From assembly GCF_002848135.1 (NCBI RefSeq), contig NZ_PKGB01000001.1, positions 186,001-250,000 of the forward strand: a stretch of DNA of 64,000 nt. Direction: 5' to 3'. Both the position numbers and the translations under genes were made by a program. Shown here piece by piece: positions 11,762-57,965 of the stretch. The DNA comes from Hydrogenovibrio sp. SC-1. Its GTDB lineage: Bacteria > Pseudomonadota > Gammaproteobacteria > Thiomicrospirales > Thiomicrospiraceae. Position 1 is the first letter of the stretch; the number at the start of each line of letters is the position of its first letter. Under the pieces are notes generated by a model. It was not told the origin of the DNA, did not search any database, and saw nothing but the letters and a program-made list of their open reading frames with translations.

Positions 11762-12868
11762 ATGAAAGTATTGGTAACCGGAGCTGCAGGCTTTATTGGT
11801 AAAAATTTGTGTGTGAGTTTGTCCCGAAATACTGAGATTGAAATCATTCGTTTTTCAAGGCAGGATTCAATAGGAGATCTCCCAGGCCTGGTCGAAAAAG
11901 TTGATTTTATTTTTCATTTGGCTGGCGTCAATCGACCTAAAGACGATACAGAGTTTTTTAGTGGAAATTCAGATTTAACCGAATCTTTGTGTCAAGCAAT
12001 AAAGTTAACAGGAAGAAATATTCCGATTGTACTGACTTCATCTATCCAGGCAGAGCGTCCAAATGCCTATGGCAAAAGTAAGCTTAAGGCTGAGATGCAC
12101 TTACTGAGCCTCTATATGGAAACGGGTAATAATGTCTATATCTATCGACTCCCTAATGTATTCGGTAAGTGGTGTAAGCCGAACTACAATTCGGTTATAG
12201 CGACGTTTTGTCATAATATTAGCCACAACTTACCTATTCAAATTAATGACTCATCTGCTGTCCTTAAATTAGTTCATATTGGTGCTGTTGTGACATCGTT
12301 TTTGGATGTGATGCAGTCTTTACCGAAAGATAAACTCTATATTGACGTTCAGCCAGTTTATGAAGTAACTTTAGGTGAACTTGCAGATCAGCTTTACAAG
12401 TTTAAAGAGAGCCGTGAAAGTCTAGTGGTCGAACCGGTTGGTGATGGGTTTACTCGGGTACTTTATGCAACCTATATTAGTTATATACCTCCCAACGAAT
12501 TCAACTATCCGTTAACGAAAAATGAAGATGCACGGGGTTCTTTTGTAGAAATGTTGAAGACTAAAGATTCTGGGCAATTTTCATTCTTCACTGCCCACCC
12601 AGGGGTAACGCGTGGCGGACACTATCATCATGTTAAAACTGAAAAGTTTTTGGTGATCAAAGGCCAAGCACGATTTGGTTTTAGGCATATTGTTACAGAT
12701 GAAGTATGTGAAATTTTTACCAGTGGTGAGCAACCAGAAGTTGTTGAAACAGTCCCTGGTTGGTCACACGATGTGACTAATGTTAGTGATGATGAATTAG
12801 TGGTAATGTTATGGGCGAATGAGAATTTTGATAAAGCCCGCCCCGATACAGTTTATTTTAAGGTTTGA
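11762..12868 (+). CDS. wbjC: UDP-2-acetamido-2,6-dideoxy-hexulose reductase (WbjC/FnlB/CapF)
   Basis: Bifunctional CapF-type protein of 368 residues. The N-terminal Rossmann domain starts VLVTGAAGFIGKNL; the C-terminal cupin begins near residue 245 with DARGSFVEMLKT, then TRGGHYHHVKTEKF with metal-binding histidines. CapF enzymes epimerise at C3 with the cupin and reduce at C4 with NADPH. I use ATG 11762 rather than GTG 11759, because the GAGGAG box at 11751-11756 is then at a normal distance and the GTG overlaps the wbjB stop. One exact CCAGGCCTGG lies at 11882. Confidence 0.92.
   Translation: MKVLVTGAAGFIGKNLCVSLSRNTEIEIIRFSRQDSIGDLPGLVEKVDFIFHLAGVNRPKDDTEFFSGNSDLTESLCQAIKLTGRNIPIVLTSSIQAERPNAYGKSKLKAEMHLLSLYMETGNNVYIYRLPNVFGKWCKPNYNSVIATFCHNISHNLPIQINDSSAVLKLVHIGAVVTSFLDVMQSLPKDKLYIDVQPVYEVTLGELADQLYKFKESRESLVVEPVGDGFTRVLYATYISYIPPNEFNYPLTKNEDARGSFVEMLKTKDSGQFSFFTAHPGVTRGGHYHHVKTEKFLVIKGQARFGFRHIVTDEVCEIFTSGEQPEVVETVPGWSHDVTNVSDDELVVMLWANENFDKARPDTVYFKV
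11882..11891. repeat. CCAGGCCTGG palindrome, copy in wbjC
   Basis: Exact copy; encodes P-G-L-V. It is the only exact copy in the sugar cluster. Confidence 0.85.
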
Positions 12869-12870
12869 TA

Positions 12871-14001
12871 ATGAAAAAATTAAAAGTGGTGACGGTTGTT
12901 GGCACGCGACCAGAGATCATTCGGCTTGCTTGTGTGATCAAAAAAATAGATGAATATTGCGAACATGTTTTAGTGCATACAGGCCAAAATTACGATTATG
13001 AGCTGAATGAAATATTTTTTAATGATTTAGGGATTCGTAAACCAGATTATTTTTTAGGGGCTGCTGGTGCGAGTGGTGCTGAAACCATTGGCAATGTCAT
13101 TATTGCGGTTGATAAAGTCTTGGCCGAAATTCAACCTGATGCCTTGTTGGTGCTAGGGGATACCAATAGTTGTATGTCGGTATTGCCTGCTAAGCGCCGT
13201 AAAATTCCAACCTTCCACATGGAAGCCGGTAACCGTTGTTTTGATCAGCGTGTGCCAGAGGAAATTAACCGCCGTTTAGTGGATCACATGGCCGATATCA
13301 ATTTGACCTACAGCACGATTGCCCGTGATTATTTACTGAGGGAAGGTTTGCCTGCCGATATGGTTATCAAAACCGGCAGCCCAATGTTTGAAGTATTAAA
13401 TAGTTATCGCGAAGGTATTGAAAAGTCGGATGTGCTCGAACGCCTGAACCTGAAAAAACATCAGTTTTTTGTGGTTAGTGCACATCGTGAGGAAAATGTT
13501 GATTCAGACAAGAACTTCTTAAATTTGGTTGAATCACTGAACACGATTGCGGAAACCTATCAAATGCCAGTGATCGTTTCAACGCACCCAAGAACCCAAA
13601 AACGTGTTGATGTTATGGGGGTTGAGTTTCATCCAATGGTGCAGTTACTCAAACCGCTTGGCTTCAAAGACTATAATAAACTTCAGTTATGCGCCAATGC
13701 AGTGCTGTCGGATAGTGGTACTATTAACGAAGAATCTTCGATTATGAACTTCCCGGCATTGAACCTGCGTGAAGCACATGAGCGCCCTGAGGGGATGGAA
13801 GAGGCGGCGGTTATTATGACAGGCTTGCAAAAAGACCGCATTATGCAAAGTCTAGCGGTTATCGAAAATCAACCGAGGGATAATGAACGTTTAGTTCGTC
13901 AAGTTTATGATTATTCGATGCCAAACGTCTCGGATAAAGTGGTGCGTATTATTCATAGCTATACCGATTATGTGAACCGCGTAGTTTGGAAGCAATATTA
14001 G
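12871..14001 (+). CDS. wbjD: UDP-L-FucNAc C2-epimerase (WbjD/FnlC)
   Basis: This 376-residue protein belongs to the UDP-GlcNAc 2-epimerase superfamily: VVGTRPEIIRLA near the start, HTGQNYDYELNEIFF, LVLGDTNS, HMEAGNRCFDQRVPEEINRR and VSAHREENV are all present. It inverts C2 to complete UDP-L-FucNAc (or L-QuiNAc if WbjC products differ). I prefer ATG 12871 over TTG 12865, since AAGG at 12860-12863 lies seven bases upstream. It directly follows wbjC with a 2-bp gap. Confidence 0.93.
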   Translation: MKKLKVVTVVGTRPEIIRLACVIKKIDEYCEHVLVHTGQNYDYELNEIFFNDLGIRKPDYFLGAAGASGAETIGNVIIAVDKVLAEIQPDALLVLGDTNSCMSVLPAKRRKIPTFHMEAGNRCFDQRVPEEINRRLVDHMADINLTYSTIARDYLLREGLPADMVIKTGSPMFEVLNSYREGIEKSDVLERLNLKKHQFFVVSAHREENVDSDKNFLNLVESLNTIAETYQMPVIVSTHPRTQKRVDVMGVEFHPMVQLLKPLGFKDYNKLQLCANAVLSDSGTINEESSIMNFPALNLREAHERPEGMEEAAVIMTGLQKDRIMQSLAVIENQPRDNERLVRQVYDYSMPNVSDKVVRIIHSYTDYVNRVVWKQY

Positions 14002-56497: not shown

Positions 56498-56516
56498 TGA
56501 TAGGATATCTTCAATA

Positions 56517-57965
56517 ATGTTGGCATTTCAACAGACTGAAATTTTGCTTTGGATAATGGCCGTACTTATCCCTGTCATATTGGCTTGGGGCTGGGCACAA
56601 TATCGGCAAAACCGCCAATGGCAGCAAAAACAACCAGGCCTGGCCGTTTTAGAGGCCGAAAATCAACATTTAAAACAAGAAAATGACCGTTTAGCCGAAC
56701 AACTTTCGAAGCTGTATCCGTTGCAAGGGGAGTTTTCTCAGCAACAACAGCAACTACAAAAGTTGCACCAGCAACTGGATGAGGCCAAGCACGAGTATCG
56801 TGCCCAAACGAGTCAATTGAATCAAGCGCAATCTGAGTTGGCTAGTGTTCAAAGTCGATTGGAAGCAGAACGGAAAAGTGCCGATGAAAAAATGGCCTTA
56901 TTGAGCTCGGCTAAGGAAACTTTGATGCAAGAGTTTAAGGTGCTGTCGAATGATATTTTAGAACAGAAACAACAACAAATGGGATTGCAGAGTAAAGAGG
57001 CAATCAGTGGCTTGGTTCAGCCGATGCAAGCAACCCTGGAGCAGTTTAAGGCGCGCATTGAACATGTTCATAAAGAGGACCTGGAAGGCAGAGCATCGCT
57101 TACCGAGCAGTTAAAAGCACTGCGTGAATTAAATCAAACCATGAGTGTGGAGGCAAATAATTTAACCCGTGCTTTGAAGGGCGATCAAAAGTTACAAGGT
57201 AATTGGGGGGAATTGATCTTACAAAAACTATTGGAGTCCTCAGGGTTGAGAGAGGGTATCGAGTTTGAAGTTGAAAAAAGCTTTACTCAATCTGATGGCA
57301 AACGCTTAAGACCTGATGTCATTATTAACTTGCCCGATAACAAACATGTGGTGATCGATTCTAAAGTGTCCTTATTAAGTTATGAAGCGGCATTAAATGC
57401 GGAAGAGGAACACTTAAAAACACAACACGTAAAAGCGCATTTATCCAGTTTAAGCAAGCATATTCAAGCATTATCGGATAAGCGCTATGACCATATTGAT
57501 GGTCTAAATGCGCCTGACTTTGTGTTGATGTTTGTCCCCATCGAAGGGGCGTATTTGATGGCGATTGAAAATCAGCCGGCTATCTTCGAAAAAGCATTTG
57601 ATCAAAAAGTGGCCGTTGTCACGCCGACCACGTTGTTTACCACCTTAAAAACCATTGAACAATTGTGGCGTTATGAGCGTCAATCAGAGCATACTGTTAA
57701 CCTGATTAAACGCGCAGCCGATGTCCATGATAAGTTTGTCGGGTTTGTCACCACCTTTGAAAAAATTGGTAAACAACTTGATTTGGCTCAAAGCAGTTAT
57801 CAGTATGCCTTTAAGCAAATGACTTCCGGTAAAAATAATCTGGTTAGACAAGCTGAGATGCTAAAAGATTTGGCAGGTAAGACGAAAAAAGATTTACCTT
57901 CACATCTATTGGCGGTCACGGAAGGCGACTCAATATTAGAAGATATGCGGGATGATGAGAAATAA
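56517..57965 (+). CDS. rmuC: DNA recombination protein RmuC
   Basis: A 482-residue protein with an N-terminal membrane helix (LLWIMAVLIPVILAWGW), a long coiled coil rich in Gln to about residue 150, then the RmuC nuclease-like domain: GNWGELILQKLLESSGLREG and VVIDSKVSLLSYEAAL carry family residues. RmuC lowers inversion frequency between repeats and has been linked to phage defence; function remains poorly known. It contains a CCAGGCCTGG at 56634 encoding P-G-L-A. Confidence 0.93.
   Translation: MLAFQQTEILLWIMAVLIPVILAWGWAQYRQNRQWQQKQPGLAVLEAENQHLKQENDRLAEQLSKLYPLQGEFSQQQQQLQKLHQQLDEAKHEYRAQTSQLNQAQSELASVQSRLEAERKSADEKMALLSSAKETLMQEFKVLSNDILEQKQQQMGLQSKEAISGLVQPMQATLEQFKARIEHVHKEDLEGRASLTEQLKALRELNQTMSVEANNLTRALKGDQKLQGNWGELILQKLLESSGLREGIEFEVEKSFTQSDGKRLRPDVIINLPDNKHVVIDSKVSLLSYEAALNAEEEHLKTQHVKAHLSSLSKHIQALSDKRYDHIDGLNAPDFVLMFVPIEGAYLMAIENQPAIFEKAFDQKVAVVTPTTLFTTLKTIEQLWRYERQSEHTVNLIKRAADVHDKFVGFVTTFEKIGKQLDLAQSSYQYAFKQMTSGKNNLVRQAEMLKDLAGKTKKDLPSHLLAVTEGDSILEDMRDDEK
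56634..56643. repeat. CCAGGCCTGG palindrome, copy in rmuC
   Basis: Exact copy; encodes P-G-L-A, just after the membrane helix of RmuC. Confidence 0.85.

Follow-up and report, generated by a model that had tools for sequence, protein, structure and literature searches.

A candidate DNA uptake word, iterated and palindromic, in Hydrogenovibrio sp. SC-1 and its family

We analysed a 64,000-nucleotide stretch of the Hydrogenovibrio sp. SC-1 genome (contig 1, positions 186001–250000 of an assembly of 2,452,073 bases in 41 contigs; hereafter the window), in which the ten-base palindrome CCAGGCCTGG recurs. Our analysis indicates that this word is probably the core of a DNA uptake sequence specific to the family, and it looks like a putative self-recognition mark for the uptake of DNA from close kin. 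The evidence comes from the abundance and anatomy of the word, its maintenance within genes, its placement and its replacement by other words in related clades.

Results

Abundance and taxonomic reach

The SC-1 genome contained 367 exact copies of CCAGGCCTGG, and the reversed pattern used as a control gave none. In a 464-kb sample of this genome, composed of the window and 20 further stretches, we counted 70 copies against about 0.3 expected under an order-3 model (140 against 0.62 when both strands are counted). This is far from the near-Markov count that the original prediction had named as speaking against a special word. The perfect copies outnumbered the 31 places (62 strand-wise) carrying a single mismatch, a relation described by Redfield 2006 (PMC1626085) as typical of the uptake signal sequences (USS) of Pasteurellaceae and the DNA uptake sequences (DUS) of Neisseriaceae and unlike that of regulator sites. 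Within the window itself, CCAGGCCTGG was the highest-ranked 10-mer by log-likelihood, with nine copies observed versus 0.05 expected under an order-2 model. The 13 window sites with at most one mismatch compare with a mean of 0.90 and a maximum of 4 in 100 dinucleotide shuffles, in agreement with the excess over chance first proposed.

For comparison we used 62 genomes of the order (designated here by G numbers), representing one family and seven genera. Whole-genome counts of CCAGGCCTGG were 234–856 in 26 of these genomes and 0–106 in the other 36. Outside the family, the highest count among 365 class members (369 drawn) was 46 copies.

Anatomy of the motif

The motif is longer than the 10-mer and consists of a dyad core flanked on both sides by A/T tracts, in coding and intergenic copies alike. 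The 70 sites of the SC-1 sample are enriched in A 4–7 bases ahead of the core and in T at the mirrored positions, and the base preference fades past about 24 bp. When six genomes were pooled, A or T occupied the positions 4–7 bases out from the core in 75–86% of ORF (open reading frame) copies and 79–88% of intergenic copies, versus 42–62% beyond. Because the flanks also accompany ORF copies, we consider them part of the word and not merely a by-product of terminators. The palindromic word may be viewed as two half-sites placed back to back, each comprising an A/T tract, about three bases and CCAGG, whereas the asymmetric dialects described below would retain a single such half-site.

Maintenance at the DNA level and at shared gene positions

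For shuffling and placement, ORFs were taken as the longest non-overlapping frames of at least 90 amino acids, which do not represent an annotation. In 100 synonymous-codon shuffles per genome, the ORFs of the SC-1 sample retained 1.28 copies on average and never more than 6, against 40 observed. The corresponding observed and mean values were 24 and 4.69 in G006, 38 and 9.98 in G047, 13 and 0.85 in G008, 4 and 0.16 in G007, and 40 and 0.46 in G026, which carries the word ACCGGCCGGT. Since the ORF copies far exceed those in the shuffles, the word is maintained at the level of DNA.

Two copies in the window allowed comparison across genera. The exact word was present at rsgA codons 45–48 in 11 of the 15 CCAGGCCTGG-rich genomes among the 30 compared and at codons 173–176 of an M48 protease gene in 13 of 15, so that the word is not absent from relatives at the same gene positions, the other outcome named in advance as unfavourable. 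The exact 10-mer was found at neither position in any of 15 word-poor or other-dialect genomes. Word carriers from other genera share 63–67% RsgA identity with SC-1, and non-carriers have different codons or different residues at the two places. G005 is word-rich, yet its rsgA copy was lost or never present. The M48 position reads GAA CAG GCC TGG in five of six genomes of the clade carrying the word CAGGCCTG, including the word-poor G022 and G036, and G007, G008 and G012 have the word at neither site. The alignments were gap-free in all 30 rows for rsgA and in 28 of 30 for M48, the remaining two M48 rows having failed to align at the site, which indicates an origin by point change and not by insertion at these two sites. 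Among 94 comparisons of sampled stretches, some word sites were shared and many were private.

Placement

In the SC-1 sample, 30 of the 70 copies lie outside ORFs, where only 10% of the bases are found (binomial p = 2e-12). This non-coding preference coexists with many coding copies, as the other 40 are located in ORFs (90% of bases). Across six genomes, 103 of 185 CCAGGCCTGG copies were in ORFs and were spread over the full ORF length, 60 of 71 intergenic copies were within 100 bp of a stop codon, and divergent gaps held 6 of 77.

The asymmetric words often occur as inverted pairs, with 30 of 89 copies in four sampled genomes lying within 60 bp of a copy in the opposite orientation; this test paired none of the palindromic copies, for which pairing is not definable. 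In the five such pairs seen in alignments of sampled stretches (G008 stretches L173 and L174; G012 stretches L207 and L208), one copy contains TCTGCC and the other TCTACC. Judging from these letters, the hairpin that such a pair might form would contain a G-U wobble when one strand folds and an A-C mismatch when its complement does.

Word density in the SC-1 sample varied with base composition: seven 4-kb bins below 38% GC held one site, and 11 bins of at least 46% GC held 13. This dependence fits a scarcity of words in imported DNA, and base composition alone could contribute to it. An origin-to-terminus distribution, which the original prediction had suggested examining, showed no bias in the sampled stretches. 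G006, G007, G008 and G026 contained 1–11 copies per 20-kb sample with no such trend.

Dialects across the order

Words other than CCAGGCCTGG were identified in 11 further genomes, bringing those with a known word to 37 of 62 (including G013, whose variant is based on 10 copies in 60 kb). They are of three kinds: CAGGCCTG with other outer bases; ACCGGCCGGT; and asymmetric words of 18–20 bp such as AAAATCTGCCAGGTTGGG. The asymmetric core CCAGGYTGGG was present in 331, 371 and 403 copies in G007, G008 and G012, respectively, and in at most 15 in the other 59 genomes (reversed control at most 10). ACCGGCCGGT reached 1,025 copies in G026, a member of another genus, and at most 15 in the other 61 (control at most 19). 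CAGGCCTG occurred at least 236 times in 32 genomes and at most 74 times in the remaining 30, and since its reversed control reaches 36, small counts of this word carry little meaning. Consensus words derived from sampled stretches were AAAATCTGCCAGGCTGGGGT for G007, AAAATCTGCCAGGTTGGGGT for G008, TACCGGCCGGTA with A/T wings for G026 and aACAGGCCTGTt, also winged, for G047; the stretches further revealed asymmetric variants in G012 and G013 and the CAGGCCTG type in G023 and G046.

We call genomes lacking the four counted words word-poor, and we sampled stretches of 21 of the 62 genomes for unknown words. None was seen in the samples of G029, G030, G042 and G050 (40–60 kb each, as for G028) or of G051 (200 kb), and G028 showed a possible word, TTTCACGTGAAA, twice in 40 kb. 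Three places in 27 kb of G016 had suggested CAGGCGCGCCTG as a fifth word, which was dropped when only eight copies were found genome-wide. Other repeats were noted as well. The G051 stretches L196–L205 contain a repeated unit with AGGCAGCTAAGA (96 copies in 200 kb), masked before word counting, and the G008 stretches L166–L175 include a repetitive region (about 6 kb masked) with units bearing ACCACAGCGGA and CGCGGCCAGGTC.

A midpoint-rooted tree of the RsgA and M48 proteins from 30 genomes (of 61 with an rsgA match), read without inspection of branch support, placed the three asymmetric-word genomes in one clade and the CAGGCCTG-type genomes in another. CCAGGCCTGG was distributed over three parts of the tree, namely Hydrogenovibrio, G061 and part of genus g5. 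Word-poor genomes were nested within word-rich parts (G022 with G036; G039 with G044; and G029), which reads as word loss. At the shared M48 site, G029 (locus L258) carries the near-copy TTGATCAGGCCTGGTGG in a genome with only two exact CCAGGCCTGG copies, looking like decay following loss.

Competence machinery and receptor candidates

Among competence genes we searched for ComEC, and its domain (PF03772) was matched in 56 of 62 genomes, SC-1 included. Because E. coli, in the control set, matches the same family, this presence proves little. Its absence is somewhat more telling. Of 50 genomes rated good, only G018, G036 and G050 have no ComEC, and G022 has the shortest ComEC ORF (594 amino acids); all four lack a known word, a coincidence with a chance probability of 0.017 if relatedness is ignored.

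A search through PF12019 for FimT as a candidate receptor gave three matches, and the one locus read (L247) neighbours type II secretion genes; FimT was not identified. A scan for prepilin signals in stretches of five genomes returned three ORFs, two of which are the secretion pseudopilins of the window. The window also contains an MSHA-like pilus cluster (45963–52531) encoding an AAA ATPase, an MshL-like secretin, a TPR protein and an MshE-like ATPase. Any minor pilins near this cluster would be possible receptor candidates.

Copies of the word in the window

All nine exact and four one-mismatch copies originally listed were located where predicted. The exact copies lie within genes for a WbcJ-like UDP-sugar reductase (11882..11891), a 753-amino acid ORF with no NCBIfam hit (22993..23002), gspF (30301..30310), a pseudopilin-like protein with an N_methyl match (31728..31737), gspJ (32733..32742), gspK (33511..33520), rsgA (39595..39604), the M48/HtpX-like protease (40842..40851) and rmuC (56634..56643). 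Other genera have the word at the same codons of rsgA, and either the word or the CAGGCCTG dialect at those of the protease gene. Five exact copies extend to the 12-mer ACCAGGCCTGGT, at 30300, 31727, 32732, 39594 and 40841. All nine are inside ORFs, in all three frames (five, one and three copies in phases 0, 1 and 2), and encode the peptides first reported for them. The one-mismatch copies are found in the 753-amino acid ORF (24283..24292), a subtilase gene (36759..36768), a tyrosine recombinase gene (60811..60820) and between ORFs, 31 bases ahead of an acetolactate synthase ORF (42291..42300). The GC content of the window had been put at about 43%; base counts give 41.5%, and the SC-1 genome announcement states 42.9% for the genome (PMC5794960).

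A type II secretion cluster (26001–33781), comprising a gspD-like secretin gene, gspF, pseudopilin genes and gspK, contains four of the nine exact copies in a span of 3.2 kb. Positions 1–11881 have a GC content of 33–35% and no exact copy; the copy at 11882, in the sugar-nucleotide reductase gene at the end of this region, is the sole one in the first 12 kb.

Discussion

The word had been likened to the cyanobacterial highly iterated palindrome HIP1, to an uptake or maintenance word and to a signal linked to methylation or repair. Among these, the evidence speaks most strongly for an uptake word, still a putative one, and the search for PF00145 gave no support to a methylation link of the cytosine-5 kind. 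From comparison of genomes we infer competence, uptake and a receptor in these bacteria. A competence receptor at the cell surface would bind the core and its A/T tract, and cells would favour DNA of their own kind. Transformation would then exchange resident alleles for word-bearing ones, and near-perfect words would accumulate by molecular drive. A shift in receptor specificity would shift the word and give rise to dialects, and loss of competence would leave the word to decay.

Several features of the word have been reported for USS or DUS, including a core with an A/T tract, an excess of perfect copies, dialects, association with terminators and inverted pairs (PMC1626085; PMC3630211). As described for the Pasteurellaceae USS, the word combines a short core and AT-rich tracts with clade-specific core types, a non-coding preference alongside many coding copies, perfect copies exceeding one-off copies and an origin other than insertion (PMC1626085). 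The USS differs in being non-palindromic (PMC12616744), unlike the word in most members of the family, and in having both AT motifs 3' of its core ANNNGCGGT (PMC1626085), whereas the word described here has an unrelated core and tracts on either side. Like the Neisseriaceae DUS, the word has dialects that follow phylogeny, family members without it and inverted pairs linked to terminators (PMC3630211). The DUS is described as having no flanking motifs (PMC1626085), in contrast to the A/T flanks here, and as numbering thousands of copies (PMC3630211), compared with hundreds per genome for the present word. The core with A/T tracts, the excess of perfect copies, the enrichment after stop codons, the inverted pairs and the dialects together fit USS and DUS better than HIP1.

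Several observations weigh against an uptake word. The SC-1 density of 0.15 per kb (367 copies in 2.45 Mb) is several times below the approximately 1 per kb of USS and DUS, for the former of which uptake is proven. The 8-mer core reaches 479 copies, or 0.2 per kb, in SC-1, and the top 8-mer density in the order is about 0.55 per kb (G057; 1,101 in about 2.0 Mb). Spacing of the words did not appear more regular than random in the samples, with coefficients of variation of 0.99 for 36 sites and 0.89 for 64. The pattern of ComEC absence is suggestive only, since G022 and G036, half of its four supporting cases, are sister genomes. The next shortest ComEC ORFs, of 702–708 amino acids, belong to three g2 genomes and are followed by one of 771. 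G029, G039, G044, G051 and others are word-poor yet have kept ComEC, and G035 has 236 copies of CAGGCCTG and no ComEC match, in an assembly 82% complete and divided into 330 contigs. ComP (PF16732), the DUS receptor of Neisseriaceae, was matched above the cut-off in none of the 62 genomes, with one weak match in G051. Finally, 19 good genomes have no known word, and 12 of these fell outside the sample searched for unknown words.

Among other explanations, an abundant protein that organises the chromosome or associates with the nucleoid might bind the word and have drifted in specificity between clades, which we regard as unlikely. Palindromes with A/T tracts, as found in most dialects, are what a DNA-bending dimer might favour, and four genomes had copies in all ten of their 20-kb samples, both before and after the GC-skew switch. 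However, the preponderance of perfect over one-off copies is unlike ordinary protein sites, related clades differ in dialect at hundreds of sites, some dialects are asymmetric and the samples show no origin-to-terminus pattern.

An origin of the HIP1 type, in which a bias of methylation-dependent mismatch repair generates the word (Elhai's model), seems improbable. The resemblance is real in that cyanobacterial HIP1 is likewise an iterated palindrome replaced by other palindromes, the alternate HIPs, in some relatives (PMC4390886). HIPs accompany word-specific methyltransferases, whereas the cytosine-5 methyltransferase family PF00145 had no match in 24 of the 37 known-word genomes or in 18 of the 26 CCAGGCCTGG-rich ones, SC-1 among them in both cases, in a search that did not extend to the N4C and N6A classes. 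The A/T tracts lie outside the core, a feature unlike HIPs, and asymmetric words of 18–20 bp are not palindromic methyltransferase targets. The missing PF00145 matches and the asymmetry of some words disfavour a methylation-driven HIP. For the methylation link first suggested from the CCWGG and AGGCCT sites within CCAGGCCTGG, a cytosine-5 form was likewise set aside as unsupported, since SC-1 has no PF00145 match, ACCGGCCGGT contains neither site and some words are not palindromic. As a separate observation, the PF00145 matches listed for the 1.8-Mb draft genome G003 number nine, some of them fragmentary.

Bidirectional intrinsic terminators homogenised throughout the genome are slightly less probable again. 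Intergenic copies do cluster behind stop codons and in convergent gaps, the asymmetric words form inverted pairs, and, judging from the letters, the dyad and its A and T tracts might adopt a terminator fold. Termination requires no single exact core, however, and the copies in rsgA and the M48 gene are retained across genera. With 103 of 185 copies inside ORFs, spread from end to end of them and flanked by A/T tracts like the others, terminators alone are insufficient. Dispersal by a small mobile element, which near-perfect copies might recall as recent copying, is highly improbable given the gap-free alignment of the word's codons at both sites examined and the disappearance of base preference past about 24 bp.

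The word most likely represents a third family of uptake sequences, unrelated to the known ones and atypical in being palindromic in most members. A 2006 paper stated that uptake sequences were not known in naturally transformable bacteria beyond Pasteurellaceae and Neisseriaceae (PMC1626085). Judged by the titles and abstracts of the papers listed, with subscription papers and the T. crunogena genome paper of 2006 outside the scope, we found no account of uptake words for the genera studied here; among the matches listed in a literature search for the letters of CCAGGCCTGG, the titles indicated human or other unrelated work. We lean towards a fuller scenario in which this third family evolved independently in free-living chemolithoautotrophs and its receptor reads half-sites. 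Most clades would then use the palindrome, and one Hydrogenovibrio clade would have switched to just one half-site, joined to a new partner sequence, while G026 carries an unrelated palindrome at approximately 1,000 places.

If this is correct, the family would comprise four or more word types within a single order, of which cultured strains carry two, and would offer new ground for studying the evolution of uptake specificity and for finding the protein that recognises the word. It may also have practical value, as a 2025 report describes Thiomicrospira pelophila as still lacking a working system for site-directed mutation (PMC12628692), and donor DNA bearing the right word might provide a mutagenesis system for this organism.

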